Below are positions 1,011 to 29,161 of a DNA stretch of 64,000 nt, one piece after another. Under the pieces are notes generated by a model that ran no database searches, was not told the origin of the DNA, and worked only from the letters and a program-made list of their open reading frames with translations. The stretch comes from Thermoleophilaceae bacterium (lineage in GTDB: Bacteria; Actinomycetota; Thermoleophilia; Solirubrobacterales; Thermoleophilaceae). Every line of letters begins with the position of its first letter. Position 1 is the stretch's first letter. A program made the translations under genes and the position numbers. The DNA is taken from assembly GCA_030448005.1 (NCBI GenBank), contig JAUJNT010000001.1:414495-478494 (forward strand), written 5' to 3'.

Positions 1011-1601
1011 TTACCCCTCCGGGACCGACAGCGCCTCCGCTGGGAGTGCCTCCTCGCACGCACGCACGAAGAAGCCGTAGATCCAGGGACGCTTCAGCTC
1101 CGCCGGATCGTCGACAGGCCCCTGCTCCGGGTCGCGCTGCAGGTGCGAGCCGATCGACCTGCGGGCGAGGAAGTGGCGCACGTGGCCGCCGGGGCCCGGC
1201 ACGCGCCAGCTCCAGGCGTGCTCGTCGTCCACGTCCGGCTTGTCAAGCGGCTCCACCTTTGCGATCTCCGTGCAGACGCTCACGATGGCATCCGACCAAT
1301 CGGAGGTCTTCGAGAAGCGCTCCTCCAGGAGCTCGGGAATCCAGTCGGCAACACTCTGAGCCGGCTCGAAGATCTCGGCCTCTATTACGCGCGTGAAGTA
1401 ACCTGCCCGGCGCAGGCCTCGATCGACCGCCGGATACTTCGTAGCCACGACGAGCTGCTCGCGCGAGTCCAGCACCGGAAGGATCTCATCCGGTGGCTCG
1501 GTCAGGAGGCGTTCCTCCACAAGGTCGTGCACCCTCTCGACCAGCGTGTCCAGGATGACGTTGGTCTTGACGGGGAAGAGGCGGCTGCGATCGACGCTCA
1601 T
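1011..1601 (-). CDS. Hypothetical protein upstream of rpsL
   Basis: I do not recognise this 196-residue protein. It is acidic and soluble-looking, has no signal peptide or membrane segment, and has Trp/Pro-rich stretches (SWRVPGPGGH, RPWIYGFF). I used the ATG at 1601; a GTG at 1607 is in frame just before it and equally possible. The gene ends 48 bp before the rpsL start on the same strand, so it may be co-transcribed with rpsL-rpsG. It diverges from the hydrogenase operon. Its position between an accessory tract and the ribosomal block makes the function unguessable from context. Confidence 0.7.
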   Translation of the reverse strand: MSVDRSRLFPVKTNVILDTLVERVHDLVEERLLTEPPDEILPVLDSREQLVVATKYPAVDRGLRRAGYFTRVIEAEIFEPAQSVADWIPELLEERFSKTSDWSDAIVSVCTEIAKVEPLDKPDVDDEHAWSWRVPGPGGHVRHFLARRSIGSHLQRDPEQGPVDDPAELKRPWIYGFFVRACEEALPAEALSVPEG

Positions 1602-1607
1602 GGTCAC

Positions 1608-1731
1608 ACGCTACCCAGGCAGGGGTGGTTTAGCAGTTACGCGCCCATGTTCCCGTTTGGCACCGCAATGGAGGCCCGTATATGTACGATACACACAGCA
1701 GCCCACCAGACCGGGAGGAGACGCACAGCCC
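1608..1731. promoter_or_regulatory. Divergent intergenic region upstream of the hydrogenase operon
   Basis: This 124-bp gap separates a minus-strand gene from the hydrogenase small-subunit gene and must hold the hydrogenase promoter. It contains an A/T-rich imperfect palindrome, GTATATGTACGATAC (1678-1692), unusual in such GC-rich DNA. A GGGAGGAG ribosome-binding site (1713-1720) lies 11 nt before the ATG at 1732. I cannot assign -10/-35 elements with confidence. Confidence 0.45.
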
Positions 1732-3024
1732 ATGGCGTATCAACGTACGGGGTTCGGGGAGGACATGAAGCTTCAGACGGTCCCCAACGCGGGGGCGGTC
1801 TTCGGCGCCAATGCGCCCATCGGACTCGGAGGTCTGGGCGGTAGCCCGGACGGTCCCCTCAACATCGTCCACGTCTTCTGGATCGCGGGAATGAGCTGCG
1901 ACGGCTGCTCGATCGCCGCCACGGCCGCTACCAACCCCTCGGTCGAGGATCTGCTGCTCGGACGAATTCCGAACCTGCCGAAGGTGGTGCTCCACCACCC
2001 GGTGCTGAACCCCGGCGCGGGCACCGAGCTCATGCGCCCGATGAAGGCGGCCGTGAACGGCGAGCTCGGCGCTCCGTACGTCGTCGTGCTCGAGGGCTCG
2101 GTCCCCGATGATCAGGCGTTCCCCACGGACGACGGCTACTTCTCCGCGATGGGCGGGGGCGGGTTCGACCCGGACACGGAGACCGATCAGCCCAACCGCG
2201 TCACCGACTGGCTCTGGAAGCTCGCGCCCGGCGCGGCGGCCTACGTGGCGATCGGAACCTGCGCAACCTGGGGCGGGATTCCGGCGGCTGCCGGCAACAT
2301 CACCGGCTCGATGAGCCTGATGGACTATCTGGGCAAGGATTACCGCTCGGCCCTCGGCGTCCCGGTGGTCAACGTTCCTGGGTGCTCACCGGTGGGCGAC
2401 AACTTCATCGACGTCGTCCAGGCGGTGCTCCTGTTCCTCCAGGGGATCGCGCCGCTGCCGAAGTTCGACGATCTCGGTCGTCCGGCGTGGCTCTTCACCG
2501 AGACGGTGCACCGTCACTGTCCGAAGGCCGGCTACTACGAGGAGGGCGTCTTCGCCGAGGAGCCGGGTGACAACCAGTGCCTCGTCGAGATCGGCTGCTG
2601 GGGCCCGGTGGTGCAGTGCAACATCGTCGAGCGCGGCGCCATCAACCACATGGGCGGCTGCATGGTCGCCGGTGCGGCCTGCATCGGCTGCACGATGCCG
2701 GGATTCCCCGACAAGTACTCTCCGTTCTACAAGGCACCGCCAGGCTCGGCCATCTCCGGAGGCATGTCGAAGATGTACGGCGGTGCCATCCGCCGGCTTC
2801 GCAGGCTCTCGATGAGAAAGCTGAACCGCGAGCCGCTGTGGGACAAGACCGGAGAGGTCCCCAGTCCGTGGGCCGAGAAGCACAAGAAGCCCACCGGAAC
2901 CGACAAGACGATGAGCTTCTTCTACAAGAAGCTCCAGTACAACAACTCTGTGAACCAGGCCAAGCGCAACAAGAAGCAGCCGATTCCGCAGAGCCGCGAC
3001 ATCCTGAGCCAAAAGGGACTCTAG
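1732..3024 (+). CDS. hhyS: [NiFe]-hydrogenase small subunit, group 1h (actinobacterial high-affinity type)
   Basis: This is the electron-transfer subunit of an H2-uptake hydrogenase, carrying three Fe-S clusters from the active site to the surface. The 430-residue product has the N-terminal CDGC motif, GTCATWGG, PGCSP, and the cluster-binding CPKAGYYEEG, GCWGPVVQC and CIGCTMPGFPDKYSPF motifs. There is no Tat signal peptide, as expected for group 1h/5 enzymes. That family is known for an O2-tolerant enzyme with a 3Cys-1Asp proximal cluster; the Asp in CDGC is a candidate ligand, which is inference. The ATG at 1732 follows GGGAGGAG. An in-frame extension to 1546 would run into the divergent neighbour and is rejected. 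It is the first gene of a seven-gene operon. Confidence 0.95.
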   Translation: MAYQRTGFGEDMKLQTVPNAGAVFGANAPIGLGGLGGSPDGPLNIVHVFWIAGMSCDGCSIAATAATNPSVEDLLLGRIPNLPKVVLHHPVLNPGAGTELMRPMKAAVNGELGAPYVVVLEGSVPDDQAFPTDDGYFSAMGGGGFDPDTETDQPNRVTDWLWKLAPGAAAYVAIGTCATWGGIPAAAGNITGSMSLMDYLGKDYRSALGVPVVNVPGCSPVGDNFIDVVQAVLLFLQGIAPLPKFDDLGRPAWLFTETVHRHCPKAGYYEEGVFAEEPGDNQCLVEIGCWGPVVQCNIVERGAINHMGGCMVAGAACIGCTMPGFPDKYSPFYKAPPGSAISGGMSKMYGGAIRRLRRLSMRKLNREPLWDKTGEVPSPWAEKHKKPTGTDKTMSFFYKKLQYNNSVNQAKRNKKQPIPQSRDILSQKGL

Positions 3025-3083: not shown

Positions 3084-5006
3084 ATGTGCTTCAAGAACCT
3101 GCCCATCGAGTTCGACAGTGCGGGTAACGCGACGCTGAAGCCCGGCGCCGCAGACCCGTACCTGTACACGGAGACGCCGGTCCAGACGCCGATCGAGGAC
3201 GACCCCGAGAAGATGCGGGAGTTGCTCGAGCGCAACGGTCACGTCCGTCGCGTCGACTTCGACCCCGTGACCCGTGTCGCGGGGGCGCTGGCCTTCCACA
3301 CGGTGGTCGACCTCGACAACCGCGAGGTGCTCGAGACGGCCTCGATGGCCACGCTCTTCCGTGGCTACGAGATCATCCTCCAGGGCCGGGATCCGCGTGA
3401 TGCGATCTTCATCTCGAGCCGCGCCTGCGGTGTGTGCGGTGGCGTCCACGCCAACGCCTCGGCGCTCGCGATCGAGATGGCCTTCGGCATCTCGCCGCCC
3501 CCGATGGGGGTCGTTGCCCGCAACCTGCTGCAGGCGATCGAGTACCTGTACGACCACCCGATCCACCTGTCGCTGCTGGCCGGCCCGGACTTCTCCGAGC
3601 CCGCGATGCGCGACACGAACCCGGAGATCTGGGAGAAGGCCCTGAGCACGCGCGTCAAGGGACGCGCCACGCACGGCTACGAGTTCATGTCGGAGATCAT
3701 GACCGACCTGACTCCGCTCACCGGCAAGCTCTACCTCGAGGGGCTGCACTACACCCGCGTCGCCCGTGAGGCCTACGTGCTGATCGGCGGCAAGTTCCCG
3801 CACCCCCAGACGGTGGTGCCGGGCGGGGTGAGCACCACGATTGACACCTCCGATCTCAACGAGATCATGCTGCGGATGGTGCAGTACTTCGATTACGGTC
3901 GGAAGACGATCGCGATCTGGAACGACATCTGCGACTTCTTCTACGAGGTCAACCCGAAGTACCGCGACATCGGCACGCGACCGAAGAGCATGCTCGAGCC
4001 GGGGCAGTGGGATGACCCCTACGCCTACGACGGCACCTACGAGAACGCCGATGACTGGGCCCGCGAGCGGTGGGCTCCCCCGGGAGTGATCGTCGACGGC
4101 GAGCTGGTCACCACGAGCGTGAAGATGCTCAATGCAGGCGTCGAGGAGTTCGTCGAGCACGCCTTCTACGAGGAGTGGGTCGGCACGACCGGCGGTCCCA
4201 GCGGAAGCTATCCGTTCCCGACCGACCCGTCGGGCAACCCGCTGTCGCCGTACCACCCCTGGAACAAGCAGACGATCCCGAAGCCGGGTGGGACCAGCTG
4301 GAAGGAGAAGTACTCCTGGTCCACGGCTCCGCGGTGGGATCGCCAGGCGATGGAGACCGGGGCCTATGCCCGCATCTGGGCAGCCGCGCAGGCACCGGAG
4401 TTCTCACACGCGCGTTTCATCGAGCCGACCGGGAAGAGCCTCAAGGTGGACCTCCCGAAGGCGGAGCTTCCCAACGACCTGGTCGAGTGGAAGGTTCCGG
4501 AGACGTGGGGCGCGTTCGAGCGCAACCGTGGTCGCGCCTACTGCATCATGTACACGGCCGCGATCGCCTATGACAACCTGCTCATCGCGTACGATCTGCT
4601 GCGAAAGGGCGGGCCGGACGCCAGGATGTCGGTGCCGTACAAGGTCCCGAAGGACCACCGCATCGGCGTCGGGCTCTGGAGCGCGGGACGCGGGTACCTC
4701 ACGCATCACCTCGAGATGGACAACGGCGTGCTGGAGAACTACCAGATCCTCACGCCCTCCACGTGGATGGCCTCGCCGAAGGATCCCTTCGGCAACCCTG
4801 GCCCCTACGAAGAGGCCGTGATGGCCACGCCGCTGCTCGAGAACTACGAGAAGCCGGAGGACTTCAAGGGCATCGACGTGCTCCGTGCCCTCCGCAGCTT
4901 CGACCCCTGCATGCCGTGCACCACGCACATCCACACGGACGAGCGCACCATCTCGCGCGAGGTCGTGACGTGTGCATGCGGGGCAGAGGGCAACCACGCA
5001 CACTGA
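3084..5006 (+). CDS. hhyL: [NiFe]-hydrogenase large (catalytic) subunit, group 1h
   Basis: This subunit carries the Ni-Fe(CN)2CO site that oxidises H2. Both cysteine pairs are present: the L1 motif RACGVCGGVH (Cys115, Cys118) and the L2 motif DPCMPCTTH (Cys609, Cys612, His615). The 640-residue protein continues 25 residues past His615 in a tail containing VTCACGAEGNHAH; by analogy a maturation endopeptidase would cleave after the histidine. The start ATG follows GGGAGGAG at about 3067. It lies 59 bp after the small-subunit gene. All four ligands are Cys, so this is not a NiFeSe enzyme. In relatives it scavenges atmospheric H2 during starvation. Confidence 0.95.
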   Translation: MCFKNLPIEFDSAGNATLKPGAADPYLYTETPVQTPIEDDPEKMRELLERNGHVRRVDFDPVTRVAGALAFHTVVDLDNREVLETASMATLFRGYEIILQGRDPRDAIFISSRACGVCGGVHANASALAIEMAFGISPPPMGVVARNLLQAIEYLYDHPIHLSLLAGPDFSEPAMRDTNPEIWEKALSTRVKGRATHGYEFMSEIMTDLTPLTGKLYLEGLHYTRVAREAYVLIGGKFPHPQTVVPGGVSTTIDTSDLNEIMLRMVQYFDYGRKTIAIWNDICDFFYEVNPKYRDIGTRPKSMLEPGQWDDPYAYDGTYENADDWARERWAPPGVIVDGELVTTSVKMLNAGVEEFVEHAFYEEWVGTTGGPSGSYPFPTDPSGNPLSPYHPWNKQTIPKPGGTSWKEKYSWSTAPRWDRQAMETGAYARIWAAAQAPEFSHARFIEPTGKSLKVDLPKAELPNDLVEWKVPETWGAFERNRGRAYCIMYTAAIAYDNLLIAYDLLRKGGPDARMSVPYKVPKDHRIGVGLWSAGRGYLTHHLEMDNGVLENYQILTPSTWMASPKDPFGNPGPYEEAVMATPLLENYEKPEDFKGIDVLRALRSFDPCMPCTTHIHTDERTISREVVTCACGAEGNHAH

Positions 5007-5053: not shown

Positions 5054-5527
5054 ATGCGTGTTCTGGTCGGCGGCGTGGGCTACCGCTTCCTGCGCGATAA
5101 CGCGCTCGGGGTGTATATATCCGACAGCTTCGCGGGGCGGGTCAGCAATGGCGTCGAAGTCGAGGATCTGGGCTACCACCCGATCGGTTTCACGCAGAAC
5201 CTGCAGGACCGCCCCACTTACGATCGCATCATCCTGGTAGCGGCGATTGCCAGGGGGCGGGAGCCGGGCACCGTGAAGGCGTATCGTTGGGACCATGAAC
5301 TGCCACCTGCCGAAGAGATTCAGGATCGGGTCTCCGAGTCGGTGACGGGCGTGATCTCCCTGGACAACCTGCTGATCGTGACCGAGGCCTTCGGGGCCTT
5401 CCCGGAGGACGTCTGGGTGGTCGAGGTAGAGCCGGCGGACGAGAGCTGGGGCGATGGCTTCAGCCCCGAGATACAAGCAAGACTTCCCGAGATCGAAGAG
5501 ACTGTATGGAATTTGACCAAGCCATAA
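5054..5527 (+). CDS. HybD-like hydrogenase maturation protease homologue lacking metal ligands
   Basis: The 157-residue protein has the M52/HybD fold signature at both ends: N-terminal VLVGGVGYRFLRDNALGV, then LGYHPIG, YDRIILVAAI and a C-terminal FSPEIQ segment. The three residues that bind nickel in HybD (Glu16, Asp62, His93) appear replaced. Glu16 becomes Asn in DNALG, Asp62 becomes Ala in LVAAI, and no His occupies the third position. It is therefore probably not a peptidase and may be a scaffold or carrier for hydrogenase maturation. The start at ATG 5054 is the only plausible one between the hhyL stop and the conserved glycine motif. It overlaps the next gene by 22 bp. A true protease follows two genes downstream. 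Confidence 0.75.
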   Translation: MRVLVGGVGYRFLRDNALGVYISDSFAGRVSNGVEVEDLGYHPIGFTQNLQDRPTYDRIILVAAIARGREPGTVKAYRWDHELPPAEEIQDRVSESVTGVISLDNLLIVTEAFGAFPEDVWVVEVEPADESWGDGFSPEIQARLPEIEETVWNLTKP

Positions 5528-6348
5528 AGGAGCTCGAGACCCTCATCGGGACGCTCGAACGCGACGAGGACGACCGTGCTTTGCTTCTGCTCCAGCTCGT
5601 CGATGCGATTCACCGCCCCGGGCTCGAGTTGATCGCCTCTGGAGACCTCGAGCATCCGATGGCACAGGCACTCTTGGGGATGTACGACCTTGCCCCCGTC
5701 GAGGAGCACATCCAGGTCGAGGAGATACTCGACGAGGTGCGCCCCTACATCGAGTCCCACGGCGGCGACCTGGAGTTGCTCGACGTGGACGACGGAGTGG
5801 TGCACGTGCGGTTGAGCGGCTCGTGCAGCGGGTGTGCCGCATCGGCGATCACCCTGCGGCGCGGTGTCGAGGACGCCCTGCGCGAGAAGTATGAGAACTT
5901 CAAGGAGGTCGTGCCCCACGAGGCGGAGGGCGCCGAGGCCGAGACCAGTGGAGCCAACGGCGGTCCACAGCTGCTTCAGATCGAGGGCCTTAATGACCAG
6001 CAGCCGAAGCGCAAGCTAAATCGGCCTGTCTTCGAGGACGCCGGCTCCATCGAGGACCTCGCGTCCGGCGAGATGAAGCCCGTCGAGGTCGACGGTGCAT
6101 CGGTGCTCATCGTGAACATCGACGGTGAGCCCTACGCCTTCAAGAACAGCTGCCCGATGGACGACCGCGGGCTGCCTCTCGACGGCGGCCGTCTCTCCGG
6201 CAAGGTGCTGGTGTGCCCGTGGCACAACTGCGGCTATGACGCGCGCTCCGGCAAGCGGGCGGACGACGAGCCCGACAAGCCGGATCTGGCCGTCGTGCCG
6301 ATCGCGCTGAGGGACGGCAAACTCCAGGTCGCGGTGAACGTAGCGTGA
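5506..6348 (+). CDS. hhyE: NifU-domain/Rieske-domain iron-sulfur protein of the hydrogenase cluster (HhyE-like)
   Basis: This is a probable electron-transfer partner linking the hydrogenase to the respiratory chain; HhyE is the name used for the mycobacterial counterpart. The 280 residues comprise an N-terminal helical region (1-65), a NifU C-terminal-type domain (about 66-125, with SCSGCAAS as the CxxC Fe-S motif), an acidic linker, and a Rieske-like domain (about 165-280). The Rieske domain has CPWH (Cys237, His240), but the first motif reads CPM, so the usual first histidine is Met218. An extra Cys242 follows. It overlaps both neighbours, by 22 bp upstream and by GTGA downstream. Gene symbol by context, not by search. 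Confidence 0.85.
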   Translation: MEFDQAIKELETLIGTLERDEDDRALLLLQLVDAIHRPGLELIASGDLEHPMAQALLGMYDLAPVEEHIQVEEILDEVRPYIESHGGDLELLDVDDGVVHVRLSGSCSGCAASAITLRRGVEDALREKYENFKEVVPHEAEGAEAETSGANGGPQLLQIEGLNDQQPKRKLNRPVFEDAGSIEDLASGEMKPVEVDGASVLIVNIDGEPYAFKNSCPMDDRGLPLDGGRLSGKVLVCPWHNCGYDARSGKRADDEPDKPDLAVVPIALRDGKLQVAVNVA

Positions 6349-6833
6349 GCCTTGCCGCCCCCGAGCCGATCGTTCGGTCCCAGCGCATTCTCGTGGCCGG
6401 GGTCGGCAACGTGCTCCGGGGCGACGACGGTTTCGGGCCCGCCGTTACCGAGCTCTTGAAAGATCTGCCGGAGGGAGCCGAGGTCATCGAGACGGGAATC
6501 GGCGGCGTGGCGCTGCTTCAGGAGCTGATGGCGGGCTGCACCGGGCTTATCCTGATTGACGCGGTGGAGCGCAATGCCCCCCCGGGTACCGTCTTCCTCA
6601 TCACGCCGGAGGTCATGGAGGGTGAGCACGTTCCCGACGTCCACCTGGCAAACCCCGACCGTGTTCTGTCGATGGCCAAGACGATGGGTGTGCTGCCCGA
6701 CCGGGTGATGATCGTCGGCTGCCAGCCGGCCGACAACATGGAGGAGCTCGACCAAGGGCTGTCCCCTCAGGTCCAGCGGGCGCTAGCGGTTGCCGTAGCT
6801 AAGATCGAGGAGACGGTCAATGCCTGGCTTTGA
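6345..6833 (+). CDS. Hydrogenase maturation endopeptidase (HybD/HyaD family, M52)
   Basis: This nickel-dependent endopeptidase removes the C-terminal tail of the hydrogenase large subunit after Ni insertion. The 162-residue protein has the family motifs with metal ligands intact: GVGNVLRGDDGFGP (acidic residue at the Glu16 position), LILIDAVE (Asp62 equivalent) and a histidine in PDVHLANPD (His93 equivalent). The GTG start at 6345 overlaps the upstream TGA as GTGA, and the gene overlaps the next one by 14 bp. Its substrate is presumably the tail of the 3084-5006 product. It is the catalytically competent partner of the degenerate homologue at 5054. Confidence 0.92.
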   Translation: MSLAAPEPIVRSQRILVAGVGNVLRGDDGFGPAVTELLKDLPEGAEVIETGIGGVALLQELMAGCTGLILIDAVERNAPPGTVFLITPEVMEGEHVPDVHLANPDRVLSMAKTMGVLPDRVMIVGCQPADNMEELDQGLSPQVQRALAVAVAKIEETVNAWL

Positions 6834-12250: not shown

Positions 12251-13412
12251 GCAGTTCGGTCATCTTCTCAGCTGGGGTTCTCCAGTCGAGCGTTTGCCTT
12301 GGTCGGCTGTTGAGCTCGGCTGCGACTCGGTCGAGGTCGACCTGGCCGTGCACGGCCAGGTCGGTGCCCTTGGGGAAGTACTGGCGCAGCAGCCCGTTGG
12401 TGTTCTCGTTTGAGCCCCGCTGCCACGGTGAGTGGGGATCGCAGAAGTAGACCGGGGCCCCGGTGGCGATGGTGAACTCGAGATGGCGTGCATCTCGCGG
12501 CCTTGGTCCCAGGTCAGCGAGCGCCGCAGCTGCTCTGGCAGCCGCATGATCTGCTCGGCGATCTTGTTGGTGACGGTCTCGGTGCGCGCGTCGCTTCCGA
12601 GGTAGCTGAGCATCACGTAGCGGGTATGGCGCTCGACGAGCGTGCCGATATAGGAGCGGTTTTGCTTGCCGACGATCAGATCGCCCTCCCAGTGGCCGGG
12701 GACGGCGCGGTCTGCGACCTCCGCCGGGCGCTGGGAGATCGAGACCATGTGCTTGATCTTGCCTGCGCCGCCCGAGCTGCTGCCGCGCGGCTTGCGAGCA
12801 GCACGACCGCTTCGCAGGTAGCCGGTCAGGTCCTTGCGAAGGCGGCCTCTGGACTGGACATAGAGCGACTGGTAGATCGTCTCGGGGGCGATGCGCATCT
12901 CCCGGTCGGCGGGATAGTCGAGCTTCAGTCTGGCTGAGATCTGCTGCGGTGAGAGGCGGCGCTCGAGCATCTCGCAGACCGCTCGGCGCAGCCTCGCGTG
13001 CGAGGCGAGCTTCGAGCGCTTGGGTCTCAAGCGCCGCCAGGCAGGCGCGATCCTCTGCGCGCGTCGCGCGATAGCGCCCGCGCCCCGCGACGCCGCCGAC
13101 CTCGCGGCTGACAGTCGACGGCGCCCTGCCGATCCGCCGCGCGATCACCCGAAACGAATCACCGGCGGCGATCCCCGCCCGGATCTCCTCGCGCTCGACC
13201 AGCGACAGCCTCAGCGGCGAGCGCCGCCGCCGGCGCGACCGCCGCGACGGGCTACCCCCAGCTGCCGCCAGCACCCTCCTGACGCTGCGGTCGGTGCTCC
13301 CCAAAGCACGCGCGACCTGGCGCTGGCTCTCACCACGAGAGACCCGCTCCAGGATCTCCAGCCGCTCCCCATAACCAAAGCGATTGCCAAACGGGCTGAT
13401 GCCCTCTCTCAC
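12240..13412 (-). pseudogene. IS30-family transposase with two frameshifts
   Basis: The N-terminal part (from 13412) has the IS30 helix-turn-helix region, including [20 protein letters not shown] and [10 protein letters not shown]. Near 13025 the reading frame shifts, and the central part continues in another frame with [27 protein letters not shown] (first catalytic Asp) and LTWDQGREM (second Asp). Near 12485 it returns to the first frame, giving [19 protein letters not shown] and [18 protein letters not shown] (catalytic Glu). All DDE residues survive, but two compensating indels are needed. IS30 normally uses one continuous frame, so this is a pseudogene or contains assembly errors. Confidence 0.88.
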
Positions 13413-20585: not shown

Positions 20586-20687
20586 CGCTCTGCACTCTAA
20601 CCCGAGTGGCCAGCCTTCGCGGCGACAATGGGTGATCCCCCGCCGTGTCCTAGTAGGCTCTCACGTGCTAAGCCGGAAAGGACCCGC

Positions 20688-23396
20688 GTGAGCGTACCCG
20701 AGCGAGAGAAGGACAAGGAGAAGATCAAGCGCCCGCGGCGACCTCCCAAGCCGCGAGAGGGCAAGCGCCGCTTCGGCACGCTCGGCTTCTTCACCACCCT
20801 CGCGGTCATCATCCTCGCGGTCGCACTCGTGCAGGCGGTGGCCGCCTCCCGGCCGCAGGTGACCGGAGAGGAACTCCACTACAAGCGCTTCGTCGACCTT
20901 GCGGAGGCGGGACGCGTCGAGAGCGGAACCATCCTCAACGCCGACGCATACGTCGTGGGGCGCTACCAGCGCGCCGACCGCACCCTCGCTGAATACAACG
21001 TGCCTTACCTGAGGACGGAGCTCCAGCAGGATCTCCTCGACATGCTGCTCGAGAACGGCATCCCGGTCCGGATCGAGCAGCAGTTCGGAAAGACCCTGGT
21101 TCCGTTCGCCATCACTGGGATCCCGACGCTGATCCTCGTCGTCCTCCTCTTCTATGGCTTCATGTCGTATCGCCGCGGGACCGGGCTGTTCGCCACTGGC
21201 AGCGGCGCGCAACTCGCCGGCCGCGAGGACAGCAAGACACGCTTCGATGACGTCGCCGCGCAGGAGGAGGCCACCACCGAGCTGAAGGAGCTCGCGCAGT
21301 TCCTGTCCGATCCCAAGCGGTTCACCTCGCTGGGCGCCCGGATACCGAGTGGAGTCCTGCTCTACGGTCCGCCGGGCTGCGGCAAGACGCTGCTGGCCAA
21401 GGCCCTTGCGGGGGAGTCGGGGGCCGCGTTCTACTCCATCTCCGGCTCGGACTTCGTGGAGATGTATGTCGGCTTGGGCGCCGCCCGCGTCCGGGAGCTC
21501 TTCAATAGGGCGCGCGAGAACGCGCCGTCGATCGTCTTCATCGACGAGATCGACGCCGTGGGGCGCAGGCGCAAGGCCACCTCCTCCGAGGGCTCCGGCG
21601 AGGAGCAGACCCAGGCCCTCAACCAGATCCTGACCGAGATGGACGGCTTCGTCTCGGGGCAGGGAACGATCGTGGTGGCCGCCACCAACCGCCCGGACGA
21701 CCTCGACCCGGCGCTGCTTCGCCCCGGCCGCTTCGACCGCGCCATCTCCGTCGACCGGCCCGACGAGAAGGGCCGCGTCGCGATCCTCGGCGTTCACGCG
21801 AGGGGCAAGCCGCTGGCCGCCGACGTGGACCTTCAGGCGATCGCCCACCGGGCCATCGGCCTGACGGGGGCGGATCTCGAGAGCGTGATCAACGAGGCGG
21901 CGCTGCTCACGGCCCGCGCCGGGACAACCGAGATCTCGCAGCAACTGCTCGATGAGGCGCTGACACGGATCCTCGAGGCCCCCGAGCGCCAGCGCCGGCT
22001 GTCGGTGAAAGACCGCAGCCTCGGTCAGCAGGCACTCTCCGACGAGCGGGTGACCTTTGCCGACGTGGCGGGCATCGAGGAGGCGCTCGAGGAACTGAAC
22101 GAGGTCAAGGATTTCCTGAGCAACCCCGAGCGGTTCGTGGAGATCGGTGCCCGCTTCCCGCGCGGGTTCCTGGTGGTCGGCCCCCCCGGCACCGGAAAGA
22201 CCCTGCTGGCGAGGGCCGTGGCGGGTGAGGCCAATGCGGCATTCGTCACGGTGGCGGCCACGGAGTTCACCGAGATCTTCGTGGGGGAGGGAGCCGCGCG
22301 AGTGCGCGACCTCTTCGGCCAGGCCCGCTCGGTGGCCCCGACCATCCTGTTCATCGACGAGATCGACGCCATCGGATCCAAGCGGGGGGCCGCGATGGAC
22401 GGCCACCGGGAGCGGGAGCAGACCCTCAACCAGATCCTGATCGAGCTGGACGGCTTCCGTCAGCGCGACACCGTGATCGTGATGGCCGCAACCAACCGTC
22501 CGGAGATCCTCGACCCGGCCCTGGTACGACCGGGCCGCTTTGACCGCACGATCACCCTCGGCCTCCCCGACCGCGCCGGCCGCCACGCGATACTCGAGGT
22601 GCACGCCGCCGGCAAGAAGCTCGGCTCCGACGTCGACCTGGACGCCCTCGCAGGCGTAACCCGGGGGCTGTCTGGCGCGGAGCTGGCAAACGTGATGAAC
22701 GAGGCCACGCTCCTGGCAGCCCGCCGCGATCAGCAGGAGGTCACCATGGACTTGCTGGACGAGGCGGTCGGCAGGGTGAGCCTCGGCATCTCGCGCGCTC
22801 ACATCCTCTCGGACGAGGAGCGGCGGGTCGTTGCCTACCATGAGGCTGGCCACGCCGTGGTGGCGCTGTCGCTGCCGGATGAAAGGCTGCCGCACAAGGT
22901 GAGCATCATTCCGGCGGGCACTGCTCTCGGACAGGCATGGCTCACCGAATCCCACGATCGGCTGCTGCACTCGCGCTCGGCGCTGATCGACGAGATGGCG
23001 ATGCTGCTCGGCGGGCGCCTGGCCGAGGACATCATCTTCGGGCAGCCGACGACGGGGGCCTCGAACGACCTCGAGCGGGTGGGCTCGATCGCGCGCAACA
23101 TGGTGCGAAGGCTGGGCATGAGCCAGGCGGTGGGCGCGCTTGGCTACCCCGACGGCGCGGACGGGAACGGAGGAGGGTCGGTCGAGCCCTACTCGGAGGA
23201 GACCGCCCGCATGATCGACGTCGAGGCGCGCGCGCTGGTCGACCAAGCGGAGGAGCGCGCCCGTCAGCTTCTCGAGAGCTCAGGGGACCGGCTCGAGCGA
23301 GTGGCCCAGGCGCTGCTCGACCGGGAGATCCTTTCCTCGAAGGAGATCGAGGAGATAGCCGGTGCCGCCGTCCGGGTCGACACCCGCACCGGTTAG
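20688..23396 (+). CDS. FtsH-type membrane protease with two AAA+ modules (copy 1)
   Basis: This ATP-dependent zinc metalloprotease has about 902 residues, far more than the usual 600-700. The order is N-terminal TM (about 28-50), an extracytoplasmic FtsH_ext-like region, TM2 (about 145-165), and AAA module 1 (Walker A GPPGCGKT at 227, Walker B FIDEIDAVG near 283). AAA module 2 follows (GPPGTGKT at 498, FIDEIDAIG), then an M41 peptidase with HEAGH at 718-722 and the third ligand in SNDLERVGSIARNMV. Both AAA modules keep Walker A/B, pore loops (FVEMYVG, FTEIFVG) and Arg fingers. The GTG at 20688 follows a GGAAAGGA site; an in-frame ATG at 20628 overlaps the divergent promoter region. A paralogue lies at 48449. 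Confidence 0.9.
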   Translation: MSVPEREKDKEKIKRPRRPPKPREGKRRFGTLGFFTTLAVIILAVALVQAVAASRPQVTGEELHYKRFVDLAEAGRVESGTILNADAYVVGRYQRADRTLAEYNVPYLRTELQQDLLDMLLENGIPVRIEQQFGKTLVPFAITGIPTLILVVLLFYGFMSYRRGTGLFATGSGAQLAGREDSKTRFDDVAAQEEATTELKELAQFLSDPKRFTSLGARIPSGVLLYGPPGCGKTLLAKALAGESGAAFYSISGSDFVEMYVGLGAARVRELFNRARENAPSIVFIDEIDAVGRRRKATSSEGSGEEQTQALNQILTEMDGFVSGQGTIVVAATNRPDDLDPALLRPGRFDRAISVDRPDEKGRVAILGVHARGKPLAADVDLQAIAHRAIGLTGADLESVINEAALLTARAGTTEISQQLLDEALTRILEAPERQRRLSVKDRSLGQQALSDERVTFADVAGIEEALEELNEVKDFLSNPERFVEIGARFPRGFLVVGPPGTGKTLLARAVAGEANAAFVTVAATEFTEIFVGEGAARVRDLFGQARSVAPTILFIDEIDAIGSKRGAAMDGHREREQTLNQILIELDGFRQRDTVIVMAATNRPEILDPALVRPGRFDRTITLGLPDRAGRHAILEVHAAGKKLGSDVDLDALAGVTRGLSGAELANVMNEATLLAARRDQQEVTMDLLDEAVGRVSLGISRAHILSDEERRVVAYHEAGHAVVALSLPDERLPHKVSIIPAGTALGQAWLTESHDRLLHSRSALIDEMAMLLGGRLAEDIIFGQPTTGASNDLERVGSIARNMVRRLGMSQAVGALGYPDGADGNGGGSVEPYSEETARMIDVEARALVDQAEERARQLLESSGDRLERVAQALLDREILSSKEIEEIAGAAVRVDTRTG

Positions 23397-23461: not shown

Positions 23462-24244
23462 ATGAAGCTCGCGGTGGCAGGCAAGGGTGGATCGGGCAAG
23501 ACCTCGATATCGGGGACCTTGGCTCGCTTGTTCGCGCGCCGTGGCCACGACGTGCTCGCCATCGACGGCGACTCGAACCCCAACCTGGCGCTCACGCTGG
23601 GCGTGGACCCCGACCTCATGGATGCGGTGCCGACGCTTCCAGCGGACCTGCTGCGGCGCACCGGCGATGGCGGAATCGAGCTCACCCGGTCCTTCGACGA
23701 GGTCGCGGCCACCCACTCGCTCGAGGCGCCAGACGGCGTCCGCCTGCTGGTCATGGCGCTGCCCAAGTACGCGGGCACGGGCTGCCTGTGCAGCATGCAC
23801 GCCGTCGTGAAGACGCTGATCCAGGCCGCTCCGACCGGGGAGCACGACGTCACGATCCTCGACACCGAGGCCTCGCCCGAGCAGTTCTCGCGCGGCACCA
23901 CTCAGCACGCCGACGGTGTGCTCACCGTGGTCGAGCCCTACTACAAGTCGATGGAGACCGGCCGTCGGATGGCGGCGCTGGCACTCGACCTGGGCATCCC
24001 GGAGATCGGCATCGTGGCCAACAAGGTGCGCGACGAGCATGAGCTCGAGGCGGTGCAGGAGTTCGCCGAGGCCAACGGGCTTCGAATCGCGGGGGTCGTT
24101 CCTTTCGACGGCAACATGCAGGACGCGGAGCGCGAGCGGCGCTCACCCTTCGACTTCAACGCGGAGGCGCCCGCGGTCGGCGCCATCAACGATCTGATCG
24201 ACGGGGTGCTTGCGAATGGGAACCTCAACAAGGTGCCTTCGTGA
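23462..24244 (+). CDS. CooC-type nickel-insertion ATPase (Cys form)
   Basis: This 260-residue protein is a SIMIBI/MinD-class ATPase related to CooC, which delivers Ni to carbon monoxide dehydrogenase. It has a deviant Walker A GKGGSGKTS (residues 7-15), DGDSNPN at switch I, and the metal-binding CxC motif at Cys108 and Cys110 (AGTGCLCSMHA), which in CooC dimers binds Ni/Zn at the interface. ILDTEASPEQFSRGT and ANKVRDEHE also fit. The ATG at 23462 has no obvious Shine-Dalgarno, so it may be leaderless. It is followed by a Cys-rich winged-helix gene after 34 bp. A close paralogue with TGA at the first Cys codon is at 28361. No CODH gene is in the window, so the client is unknown. Confidence 0.88.
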   Translation: MKLAVAGKGGSGKTSISGTLARLFARRGHDVLAIDGDSNPNLALTLGVDPDLMDAVPTLPADLLRRTGDGGIELTRSFDEVAATHSLEAPDGVRLLVMALPKYAGTGCLCSMHAVVKTLIQAAPTGEHDVTILDTEASPEQFSRGTTQHADGVLTVVEPYYKSMETGRRMAALALDLGIPEIGIVANKVRDEHELEAVQEFAEANGLRIAGVVPFDGNMQDAERERRSPFDFNAEAPAVGAINDLIDGVLANGNLNKVPS

Positions 24245-24278: not shown

Positions 24279-24647
24279 ATGAGCGAGCTGGCGGTGTTGA
24301 AAGTGCGCGAGGAGGTGCTCCAGGCCATGTACTGGATGCGCGCGGAAGGGATCGCTGATGAGCCGTCGGCGCGCAACCTATCGAGCTTCCTCGCCATGCC
24401 CCCGGACTCGCTGTCGGCCTACCTCGATCGCTTCGTCGCCGAGGGTCACCTGGAGGAGACGGCGACGGGCTTCCGGCTGACCGAGACCGGCACGGTGGCC
24501 GGCAAGCGAAGCTTTGCCGACGAGTTCTCCGACATGACCAACTCCGGGCACGGCGAATGCGGCGCGGACTGCACCTTCTGCAACAGCGATCCAAACGCTG
24601 CGGCGAGCTGCCTCGAGCAGAACGGACAGCATGTCCACCAGCACTGA
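24279..24647 (+). CDS. Winged-helix protein with Cys/His-rich C-terminal tail
   Basis: The 122-residue protein has an N-terminal helix-turn-helix-like region (about 1-75: VREEVLQAMYWMRAEGI, then FLAMPPDSLSAYLDRFVAEGH). The C-terminal tail has HGECGADCTFC, a later Cys and the ending QHVHQH. Four Cys and several His in 35 residues suggest bound metal or an Fe-S cluster, so a metal- or redox-responsive regulator is likely (inference). The ATG at 24279 follows GGAGGAG. It overlaps the PadR gene by 17 bp and lies 34 bp after the CooC-type gene, forming one operon. Confidence 0.8.
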   Translation: MSELAVLKVREEVLQAMYWMRAEGIADEPSARNLSSFLAMPPDSLSAYLDRFVAEGHLEETATGFRLTETGTVAGKRSFADEFSDMTNSGHGECGADCTFCNSDPNAAASCLEQNGQHVHQH

Positions 24648-25041
24648 CCTGGCGCAGCCTGCGCTGCCCAAGAACTTCCTGAGGCCGTGTCTGCTGCTCC
24701 TGCTGCGGGAGGCACCCGCGCACGGCTACGAGTTGCTCGATCGCCTGCGTGCCTTCGGCTTCGAGGGCTCCGATCCCGGCGGGCTCTACCGCGCGCTTCG
24801 CAAGCTCGAGGGGGAGGGGCTGGTGGCCTCTGCATGGCAGCGCTCCGGCGCCGGGCCCGATCGGCGCATCTACGAGCTCACCCGGGCGGGCCGGAAGGAG
24901 CTTCACCGGCGCGCAAAGGCGCTCGCGGAGACCCGCCAGACACTCGCTTCCTTCCTCGGTCGCTACGAGGAGTTCGTCGCGCTCGACCGGCCGAAGGAGC
25001 CGGCTGGAGAGGCGCGCGAGCGGGCCACCGCAGGGGGATAG
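24631..25041 (+). CDS. PadR-family transcriptional regulator
   Basis: The 136-residue PadR-type regulator has a winged helix (LRPCLLLLLREAPAHGYELL, GGLYRALRKLEGEGLV, RRIYELTRAGRKEL) and a short C-terminal helix for dimerisation. PadR proteins usually repress adjacent genes in response to small ligands. Its ATG lies inside the preceding gene (17-bp overlap), so the CooC-type ATPase, the Cys/His protein and PadR are probably one transcription unit. It ends before a bidirectional hairpin shared with the convergent DM13 gene. Confidence 0.88.
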   Translation: MSTSTDLAQPALPKNFLRPCLLLLLREAPAHGYELLDRLRAFGFEGSDPGGLYRALRKLEGEGLVASAWQRSGAGPDRRIYELTRAGRKELHRRAKALAETRQTLASFLGRYEEFVALDRPKEPAGEARERATAGG

Positions 25042-26043: not shown

Positions 26044-27768
26044 TTATCTGCGCCGAGCCTTGCGCCGCTCGGCAAGCCCGACTCCGCCAAGAGCCAGGGC
26101 GATCAGCAGCACCGCCAGTGAGGCGACCCTCAAGATGTCGAGGAAAGAGCTCGATTCATCGGCATCGGTTTCCTCGCCGCCGTTCGTTGCCGCTCGCGCA
26201 CCTGGAGAGGGCCCTGTCCGCAAGAAGGAGCGCTTGTCGAGGATGCCCGTCCCTTTCACGAAGAGCCAGCCGTCATGGATGGCGGGGCGGTAGGCAAAGC
26301 TGCCCTCCGGGAAGAACAGCGGCAGCGCCGGCAGGTCCTTCGCCAGCAGCCTGAGCTCGGCAGTTACCGCCCGTTGCCGCGTCCTGCGGTTCGGTGCGGA
26401 GGCCACGCGGTCGGCCAGCGCTTCGAAGGACCGGCTCCGGTAGCCGCTGTAGTTCAGGGGCGAGCTGCCAGTCTCCGATCCGAACACGCGTTGCAGGAAG
26501 TCAGGGTCGTAGGAGGCAAGCGGCGGCATGCTCACTATCGCGGCGTCGAAGTCGGCGGCCGAGCCGTCCTCGCCTATCGCGCGGCCGAGCCTCGAACGCG
26601 TGGTCTCGATCGCCTCCGCATCGAGGCCCCCTCGCCGCATGGCGAGGGCCACCTGCCGGCCAGCTTCGCGCCGGACGGGGTCGTTGTCGGGCGCCAGGAC
26701 ACGGATCGCCGGAAGCCTCAGCCTTCTGAACGCCCGCCGCGCAGCGGGCAGGTCGAACCTGTGGAGGGTAGTGTCCGGGGCCCAGCGCGACGCCGGATGG
26801 AGATATCCCCGCTCGGCCGCCACCCCTGAGCCGACGGTGCGCACGATCCGTTCGAGCTCGATCGACCTGGCGACGGCCCTGCGAGCGCTCGGGCGGTTGA
26901 ACGGAGCCCGCCTGAGGTTGAACAGCAGTGCCGTGCCGGAGTAGGAAGGCCCGCTGGCGATGTTGATGCCAAAGGAGCCGCCGAGGCGTTCGACGGCCCT
27001 CTCGGGCAGGCTCACGGGAAGCATGTCCACCTTTCTGCGCCTGATCGCGCTGTAGGTGCGCGACTCCTGCCGGATGATCGGCACCTGGATCCGCTCCACG
27101 CGCGGGCGCCCCTTGAAGTAGGCGCGGTTGGCACGGAAGCGGTAACCGGTGCGCCGCCGCGCCTCCACGAGGCGGTAGGGCCCGCTTCCGATGGCCGGCC
27201 CGGCGGGGGCGCCCCCCGCCGCAAGCCCCTGCCAGAGGTGGCGCGGGAGGATGGGCAGGTCGGCCAGCGGCTGGTCATCGAAGCCCAGGGAAGGCCGGCG
27301 TAGGTCGATCGTCACCGTCCGCCGGTCTGGCGCCCGGACCCGCTCGACGTCCGCGAGCTGCGGAGTGAAGCGCGGGTGGAAGCGATCGGCGACGAAGTCG
27401 AAGGTGAAGGCGACGTCCGCGGAGGTGAGCGGCCTGCCGTCGTGCCAGCGAACGCCATTCCTGAGCCGGATCGTCAAGCGCCGTCGATTTCCGCTGCGCG
27501 TCACCGACCGCGCCAGCCAGGGACGGGCCACGCCCTTCGAGTCGCGCCAGAGAAGCGTGTCGTAGACCAGCGTGACGAGCGGATATCCGAGCTCGAAGGT
27601 GTAGGGGGTGAGCGTGCCGTCGTACACGGGCAACGGCAGGCGTACCACCTTCGCCGGGCCTTGCGCTTCCGCCTCGGGCACGCGGGCGCCGGCCACCGAC
27701 GCGGTCAAGGCAAGCGCGGCCAGCACGGTCATCCGTAGCCTCATTGCGCGCAGGTTAGGGATCCTCAT
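26044..27768 (-). CDS. Family 5 solute-binding protein with C-terminal membrane anchor (copy 1)
   Basis: This protein of about 574 residues has an N-terminal signal peptide (MRLRMTVLAALALTASVAGA), an oligopeptide/nickel-type SBP_bac_5 domain (DGTLTPYTFELGYPLVTLVY, WHDGRPLTSADVAFTFDFV, and later SYDPDFLQRVFGSETG). At the C-terminus is a transmembrane helix followed by RRKARRR. Normal binding proteins end without such an anchor. No ABC permease or ATPase gene is nearby. The start at 27768 (MRIPNL) or 27744 (MRLRM) is open to choice; longer frames upstream overlap other genes. A paralogue with the same anchor is at 51124. Confidence 0.87.
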   Translation of the reverse strand: MRIPNLRAMRLRMTVLAALALTASVAGARVPEAEAQGPAKVVRLPLPVYDGTLTPYTFELGYPLVTLVYDTLLWRDSKGVARPWLARSVTRSGNRRRLTIRLRNGVRWHDGRPLTSADVAFTFDFVADRFHPRFTPQLADVERVRAPDRRTVTIDLRRPSLGFDDQPLADLPILPRHLWQGLAAGGAPAGPAIGSGPYRLVEARRRTGYRFRANRAYFKGRPRVERIQVPIIRQESRTYSAIRRRKVDMLPVSLPERAVERLGGSFGINIASGPSYSGTALLFNLRRAPFNRPSARRAVARSIELERIVRTVGSGVAAERGYLHPASRWAPDTTLHRFDLPAARRAFRRLRLPAIRVLAPDNDPVRREAGRQVALAMRRGGLDAEAIETTRSRLGRAIGEDGSAADFDAAIVSMPPLASYDPDFLQRVFGSETGSSPLNYSGYRSRSFEALADRVASAPNRRTRQRAVTAELRLLAKDLPALPLFFPEGSFAYRPAIHDGWLFVKGTGILDKRSFLRTGPSPGARAATNGGEETDADESSSFLDILRVASLAVLLIALALGGVGLAERRKARRR

Positions 27769-28360: not shown

Positions 28361-29161
28361 GTGAAGCTAGCTATCGCAGGCAAGGGTGGTTCCGGCAAGA
28401 CCACGTTCTCGGGCACGATGGCGCGCCTGCTTGCACGGCGCGGCCATCGTGTGATCGCGATCGATGGCGACTCCAACCCCAACCTGGCGGTCACGCTGGG
28501 CATCCCGCTCGCGCGTATGCGCGACATGCCCACGCTTCCCAACAATCTGCTGCGGCGTACCGACAGCGGCGTCGAGCTCTCCAAGTCGCTCGAGGAGGTC
28601 GTCGACTCACATTCGCTCGCGGGGCCGGACGGCGTCACCTTGCTGGTGATGGCCAACCCCCAGCACGCGGGCACCGGCTGACTGTGCAGCATGCACGCTA
28701 CGGTTCGTAGCGTGATCGAGATGGCCTCCGAGAGACAGGAGGATGTCTGCATCCTCGACACGGAGGCGTCCCCCGAGCACCTCTCGCGCGGCACCGCCCA
28801 GTACGCGGACGTAATGCTCGTGGTGGTCGAGCCCTACTTCAAGTCGCTCGAGACGGGACGGCGTATGGCCGCACTGGCCAAGGACCTCGGTCTCGAGCGA
28901 GTGGCGCTGATCGCCAACAAGATGCGGGAAGATCGGGATCTCGAGGCGGTGCGCGAGTTCGCCCAGCGAAACGAGCTGGAGATCGGTGGGATCATCCCGC
29001 ACGATGACTCGATGCAGGGCGCCGAGCGAGCAGGCAAGTCGCCGTTCGACTTCGCCCCGGACACGCCCGCCGTCCTGGCGATCGAGGCCGTGGCGCGTCG
29101 CTTCGTGGAAGGCGCCGCGCAGACGAACGGCGCCGGCGCGAGCAACGGTCACCAGCAGTAG
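28361..29161 (+). CDS. CooC-type ATPase with in-frame UGA, predicted selenoprotein (UxC)
   Basis: The frame encodes a 266-residue CooC-like ATPase if the TGA at 28679-28681 is read as selenocysteine. Both halves are intact and align along their length with the paralogue at 23462: Walker A GKGGSGKTT, DGDSNPN, AGTG-U-LCSMHA, ILDTEASPEHLSRGT, ANKMREDRD. U107 falls exactly on Cys108 of the paralogue, the first Cys of the CxC metal motif; the second (Cys109) is kept. A 9-bp stem with a GTT loop follows at the spacing expected of a bacterial SECIS. The start at GTG 28361 has no good Shine-Dalgarno. Alternatives are a nonsense-mutated pseudogene or a base error (TGC to TGA). No sel genes are in the window, so this remains a prediction. 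Confidence 0.82.
28694..28714 (+). promoter_or_regulatory. Candidate bacterial SECIS element
   Basis: CACGCTACG (28694-28702) and CGTAGCGTG (28706-28714) form a perfect 9-bp stem closed by the loop GTT. The loop G is 22 nt after the UGA, within the known bacterial spacing of about 16-37 nt, and a G at the first loop position fits the family rule. The stem also encodes protein (His-Ala-Thr-Val-Arg-Ser-Val) and uses GCT and CGT, which are uncommon codons in this GC-rich DNA. The same region of the Cys paralogue (about 23798-23818) cannot form it. Confidence 0.75.

Follow-up and report, generated by a model that had tools for sequence, protein, structure and literature searches.

CooC1 of Carboxydothermus hydrogenoformans, a factor for CO dehydrogenase (CODH), binds Zn at its dimer interface through two cysteines per subunit. 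Ni competes for the same site, with one Ni per dimer and a Kd of 0.4 µM (PMC6006190). A CooC-type ATPase has also been noted in group 1m [NiFe]-hydrogenase clusters by Ray et al. 2022 (PMC9561532). The 2026 catalogue of prokaryotic selenoproteins holds 119 families and subfamilies, none of them CooC-type (PMC13188914 Table 1). Here we describe a gene at 28361..29161 (+) of a 64,000-nucleotide (nt) stretch, called the window, from a Thermoleophilaceae bacterium (contig JAUJNT010000001.1, positions 414,495 to 478,494; genome 3.23 Mb, 96% complete). It is predicted to encode a CooC-type ATPase with selenocysteine (Sec) in the metal-binding motif.

A CooC-type ATPase gene with an in-frame UGA

The frame at 28361-29161 (+) has 266 codons, with a GTG start and a TAG terminator at 29159-29161. 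Its sole internal stop is a TGA at codon 107 (28679..28681, +). Translation confirmed what an earlier note, made from the letters alone, had claimed, namely a single in-frame TGA in an otherwise intact gene. Read through, the product has 266 residues and the motif AGTG-U-L-C-SMHATVR, residue 107 being the first position of the C-x-C in the homologue alignment. The paralogue at 23462..24244 (+), 63% identical and of the same subfamily, reads AGTGCLCSMHA against AGTG-U-LCSMHA here. It has Cys at exactly the TGA residue, as the note had said, and carried no hairpin of the kind described below. The dN/dS (ratio of nonsynonymous to synonymous substitution rates) 3' of the TGA was 0.05-0.24. Coding sequence is conserved on both sides of the UGA, as expected of a selenoprotein. 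The UGA, its recurrence, the Sec machinery, the hairpin, the protein family and the genomic linkage are demonstrated by computation; from these we infer, with near certainty, that the UGA at 28679 is read as Sec and that the gene encodes a selenoprotein.

CooC1 was the best PDB sequence match (132 bits), followed by MinD (61 bits). C112-Y-C114 of CooC1 aligned with U-L-C of the 28361 product and C-L-C of the Cys paralogue, so the C-x-C is present as U-x-C, and the note's view of this motif as the metal site of the dimer interface agrees with the published CooC1 site (PMC6006190). The deviant Walker A motif GKGGxGKT was found, with residues G7-T14 invariant. In the AlphaFold model (pLDDT 91.8) the fold matched CooC1, MinD and NifH. 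CooC1 was ranked first by Foldseek, and the structural Z-scores of about 23-25 do not by themselves separate CooC1 from MinD/NifH. The predicted product is a CooC-type P-loop ATPase with the SIMIBI MinD/ParA fold.

Homologues were sampled with TGA allowed from 150 relatives, 396 genomes of the phylum and a further scan of contig collections. UGA-bearing homologues came from 28 genomes, belonging to Actinomycetota, SAR324, Verrucomicrobiota and one unclassified bacterium. In genomes independent of one another, the UGA matched the position of the first Cys, a check that the earlier note had asked for. Because the internal TGA always falls in one alignment column, with Cys there in all remaining homologues, a chance origin is excluded. 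The motif AGTG-U-LC/LG was found in Solirubrobacterales and in another family of the same class, and AGTG-U-MCSSH and AGAG-U-LCAAH in two further actinobacterial families; the UGA form also occurred in SAR324, a Verrucomicrobium and the unclassified bacterium. Cys occupied the column in Saprospiraceae, Chloroflexi, Pseudonocardia and several Solirubrobacterales. A tree built with this residue masked required nine Sec/Cys changes, at least four of them forced by well-supported branches. By its sequences, the UGA-bearing CooC family spans at least three bacterial phyla.

Nearly all copies were free of other stops and frameshifts. Two contigs (L086 and L087; G011b/c) carry the same Sec-CooC copy of G011, which is frameshifted downstream, probably by an assembly error or as a decaying duplicate. 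A third CooC copy in the source genome (C1:684804; L003:1501-2274; G000c) carries TGA at the equivalent residue and continues with L-G in place of L-C. Such U-x-G paralogues, with Sec retained and the second Cys of the motif gone, were also seen as G011a, G022a and G030b. UAG as a second Sec codon was rejected, the TAG matches in G116 and G082 being ordinary terminal stops. A read-through scan for TGA-joined frames spanned 153 kb; beyond two CooC genes, the further joined frames resembled adjacent or antisense frames.

SECIS hairpin and selenocysteine machinery

Published criteria for the bacterial selenocysteine insertion sequence (SECIS) are G at the first two loop positions, a spacing of 16-37 nt and an energy of -7.5 kcal/mol or lower (PMC13188914). 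A hairpin at 28694..28714 (+), CACGCUAC-GGUUC-GUAGCGUG, agrees with all three. It starts 12 nt past the UGA, with an 8-bp stem, the apical loop GGUUC at +20 and an energy of about -13 to -14 kcal/mol. The isolated 26-nt hairpin reached -14.0 kcal/mol, compared with -5.3 ± 2.1 in shuffles (z = -4.2), and 0/200 shuffles were as stable. The whole 43-nt stretch gave no significance against shuffles (z = -0.7), because a short GC-rich stretch always folds. An Rfam scan of the window gave no match.

The hairpin accompanied the UGA. Stem positions were paired in 86% of cells in 16 Sec genes versus 48% in 16 Cys genes, and three stem pairs showed two-sided changes among the Sec genes. The best consensus-hairpin energy averaged -9.9 kcal/mol in Sec genes and -4.7 in Cys genes; -7.5 kcal/mol was reached by 26 of 28 UGA genes versus 14 of 68 Cys genes. 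Where two Sec genes encode the same residue, the codon was identical in 87% of comparisons within the hairpin and in 65% elsewhere; Cys genes (64% vs 65%) had no extra conservation there. The f20 hairpin differs and sits at +36. A fixed-register pairing test over all lineages was dropped as too strict, because the f20 and Verrucomicrobia hairpins occupy another register. In one Cys gene (G124a, L077:1303-2070; Cys codon TGT) the 3' arm GGTTCGTAGCGTG is intact and the 5' arm decayed, and selA was not found in that genome; this remnant looks like a fossil SECIS left after a Sec-to-Cys reversion.

All the machinery whose presence the earlier note had made a test of its claim was detected in the source genome: a tRNA-Sec with anticodon UCA (68 bits), an adjacent pair of selA (497 bits) and selB (348 bits), and selD (384 bits). 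A selA match was found in 14 of the 14 UGA genomes at least 90% complete; G345 had a short fragment and G469 a partial gene. SelA was also present in the SAR324 (L101), Verrucomicrobium, Pseudonocardia, Pseudonocardiaceae and Acidimicrobiia genomes. From the Cys-only genomes, selA was not found in G050 (97% complete) or G124 (89%). Machinery, hairpin and alignment of UGA with Cys together support the selenoprotein proposed in the note.

A second CooC-like subfamily, with the motif P-G-C-x-C-C-G, adjoins hyp genes and had UGA in five genomes. The second Cys is UGA (PGCxUCG) in G005, a Pseudonocardiaceae bin and the cultured Pseudonocardia nigra DSM 104088, and both Cys are UGA (PGUxUCG) in G004 and an Acidimicrobiia bin. 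These CxUC and UxUC genes (L108:7389-8111, L100:5692-6414 and L097:5661-6383, all +; L073 around 16904; L090 around 4801) carry their own strong hairpin, e.g., CCCGAGC-AGUU-GCUCGGG. Since this subfamily has independently placed UGA at a motif Cys, Sec would occupy the same metal motif in two paralogous lines.

Hydrogenase context and proposed nickel insertion

The Sec-CooC probably serves not CODH but a group-1 [NiFe]-hydrogenase that matures without HypA/HypB. Close relatives of the window hydrogenase (at least 53% identity) were found in 14 of 151 genomes, and the CooC family in 14/14 of these; two further genomes had CooC without a close hydrogenase (Fisher p = 6e-18, relatedness ignored). 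CooC genes lay near hydrogenase genes in Haloechinothrix, Pseudonocardia and Pseudonocardiaceae loci, in Haloechinothrix also between hypCDEF and the hydrogenase. The source genome (G000) has hypC, hypD, hypE and hypF near CooC-like genes; HypA and HypB were not found in it, HypB being judged by cut-off. HypB over the cut-off and HypA were likewise not found in G002, G259, G167, G230, G225, G277 and other relatives. In five relatives with HypB, about 5-6 kb separate it from another hydrogenase, which is ~40% identical. Because of this co-occurrence and the absence of HypA/HypB, CooC-type ATPases are proposed to do the HypA/HypB step for the window hydrogenase.

The following mechanism is consistent with these data. 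The ribosome would decode the UGA as Sec via SelB, tRNA-Sec and the downstream hairpin, a step with strong support. Two subunits would pair as in CooC1, U107 and C109 of each forming a four-ligand (U2C2) metal site at the interface. Ni2+ would probably be bound in the apo/ADP state and freed on an ATP-driven rearrangement. It may then pass into the group-1 [NiFe]-hydrogenase whose Fe(CN)2CO site, built by HypCDEF, awaits nickel, the CooC-type ATPase substituting for HypA/HypB. A selenolate would be softer and more nucleophilic than a thiolate, its oxidised forms more easily reduced; it might thus adjust how tightly Ni is held and how readily it exchanges, and let the site stay reversible in an aerobic organism. 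A Sec-containing CooC-type ATPase, selenolate-tuned and inserting Ni into hydrogenase, is overall the best explanation, and a very likely one. Taking Sec as given, a role as nickel insertase for hydrogenase is likely. On balance, we somewhat favour a wider proposal, in which ATP-driven nickel insertases, forming a new selenoprotein superfamily across several phyla, replace HypA/HypB in maturing high-affinity-type [NiFe]-hydrogenases. The superfamily would comprise two paralogous subfamilies with separate Sec (UxC/UxG and CxUC/UxUC), with up to two Sec per subunit and an interface site potentially holding up to four selenolates.

The window encodes a hydrogenase small subunit (1546..3024, +, start uncertain) and a large subunit (3084..5006, +) with the Cys ligands RACGVCGGVH and DPCMPC and no Sec. 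A [NiFeSe]-type hydrogenase was rejected, since TGA in the hydrogenase matches is the normal terminator past DPCMPC and the large subunits examined had no Sec. Past DPCMPC, the large subunit continues into a Cys/His extension at its C terminus (TCACGAEGNHAH), present in relatives too, and a second copy, 87% identical, lies on contig C7. Downstream follow a NifU-type Fe-S assembly/Rieske-like fusion (5506..6348, +) and a maturation protease of the HyaD/HybD type (6345..6833, +; TIGR00072, 114 bits).

Directly 5' of the Cys paralogue lies a gene for an FtsH-like double AAA protease (20628..23396, +); an FtsH-like gene near CooC genes was also found on C1 and in G005. A small Cys-rich protein (..GECGADCTFC.., 24279..24647, +, start inferred) also comes after CooC genes in further genomes, and a PadR-family regulator (24631..25041, +) is conserved beside CooC elsewhere. 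An ATP-binding cassette (ABC) substrate-binding protein of the peptide/nickel (NikA-like) class is encoded at 26044..27756 (-), with a weak match (62 bits, cut-off 393). Pairs of FtsH-like and peptide/nickel-class substrate-binding genes recur near CooC, in the window at 20628-23396/26044-27756 and 48428-51121/51124-52800, and in L028 at 10043-12757/12770-14512. An IS30-like transposase fragment (12260..13030, -) was recognised by eye.

Alternative readings and comparison with known systems

Several results weigh against the proposal of a Sec-dependent nickel insertase for hydrogenase. Against synonymous shuffles, just 7 of the 28 Sec hairpins were significant (p ≤ 0.05), the signal being modest outside the main lineage, and a convincing hairpin was not found in the SAR324 UGA gene. 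No selA was found in four incomplete UGA genomes (G004, G030, G486 and G524; 68-79% complete) or in two metagenome-assembled genomes (L098 and L102). The U-x-G paralogues cannot form the classical four-ligand site because the second Cys is lost, so, judging from their motif, a four-ligand CxC site is impossible for some members. G009 and G124 have CooC without a matching hydrogenase, and the genomes are related, so that the co-occurrence statistics are not independent.

A true selenoprotein with another client, either Ni-CODH as for classical CooC or as a redox or metal-storage ATPase, is the strongest alternative, and an unlikely one. CooC1 serves CODH (PMC6006190), and the U-x-G paralogue, the CooC genomes without a close hydrogenase and the usual redox activity of Sec would all fit such a role. 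The 14/14 co-occurrence, the loci shared with hydrogenase and hypCDEF genes and the absence of HypA/HypB speak for hydrogenase instead, as does the CooC-type ATPase already reported in group 1m clusters (PMC9561532); the CODH gene cooS was not seen in the neighbourhoods examined, and no genome-wide search for it was made.

Very improbable is a regulated stop, yielding a 106-residue N-terminal domain and, by reinitiation at an ATG four codons on, a split ATPase. The ATG at 28691 does open a 156-codon frame soon after the UGA, yet the Met varies among homologues (G005, G058b and G022 have Leu, f10 has Ser and f20 has Ala), the Walker A half would be severed from the rest of the fold, and the Cys in all non-UGA homologues and the tie to selA would stay unexplained. 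A pseudogene or a sequencing error, with the TGA either a true stop or a wrongly called TGC in a dead or ordinary gene, could draw on the frameshifted relative G011b/c, and is scarcely credible given the same TGA column with conserved flanks in 28 genomes of several phyla, the low dN/dS past it, the tracking of selA by UGA and the SECIS stem mostly absent from Cys genes. Reading of UGA as Cys or Trp through a code change or leaky suppression has precedent in bacteria that reassigned UGA and fits the aligned Cys, and is just as hard to credit in a genome where TGA is an ordinary terminator (e.g., of the hydrogenase, hypD, hypE and hypF), a dedicated tRNA-Sec(UCA), selA, selB and selD are present, and the hairpin occurs in UGA genes and not in most Cys genes.

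The Sec-containing CooC-type ATPase family thus favoured appears undescribed. It has no entry in the 2026 catalogue (PMC13188914), in keeping with the new family that the earlier note had thought possible. The 28361 product matched none of the selenoprotein models in NCBIfam, and a Sec-containing CooC was not found in the openly licensed literature. Because annotation takes the UGA as a stop, Sec-CooC genes have probably been cut short or overlooked, and therefore the hydrogenase gene clusters of these organisms are likely read incompletely. In most selenoproteins known so far, Sec serves a redox enzyme or sits at a catalytic metal. If our reading is true, a chaperone driven by ATP would be using Sec as a metal ligand, which would extend the known uses of selenium, and Actinobacteria with high-affinity-type hydrogenases would have a nickel insertion route without HypA/HypB. 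The cultured strain P. nigra DSM 104088 makes the Sec claim open to direct test.

Like the CODH nickel insertion ATPase CooC1 (PDB 3KJE/3KJG/3KJH/3KJI), the 28361 product has the Walker A motif GKGGxGKT and the aligned C-x-C; unlike it, Cys112 is replaced by Sec, and the genomic setting is a [NiFe]-hydrogenase plus hypCDEF, CODH not being seen nearby. The locus resembles the group 1m clusters of Actinobacteriota in adjacent small and large subunits, a HybD peptidase, an Fe-S assembly protein, a CooC-type ATPase and small one-helix proteins, a comparison of gene content under which the window hydrogenase may be 1m or 1h; Sec is not mentioned in the section of that account on these clusters (PMC9561532). 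With the HypB/HypA pair it would share the job of NTP-driven Ni delivery after HypCDEF, and HypB is also a SIMIBI NTPase, but HypB is a G3E GTPase whereas the CooC type is a MinD/ParA-like ATPase. The catalogue entry nearest in concept is the CobW-related selenoprotein NF041053, of the G3E GTPase family. It is likewise a predicted Sec-containing, metallochaperone-like NTPase, but its motif is UxxC (PMC13188914), and the NCBIfam search matched the 28361 product, with its U-x-C motif, to no such model.
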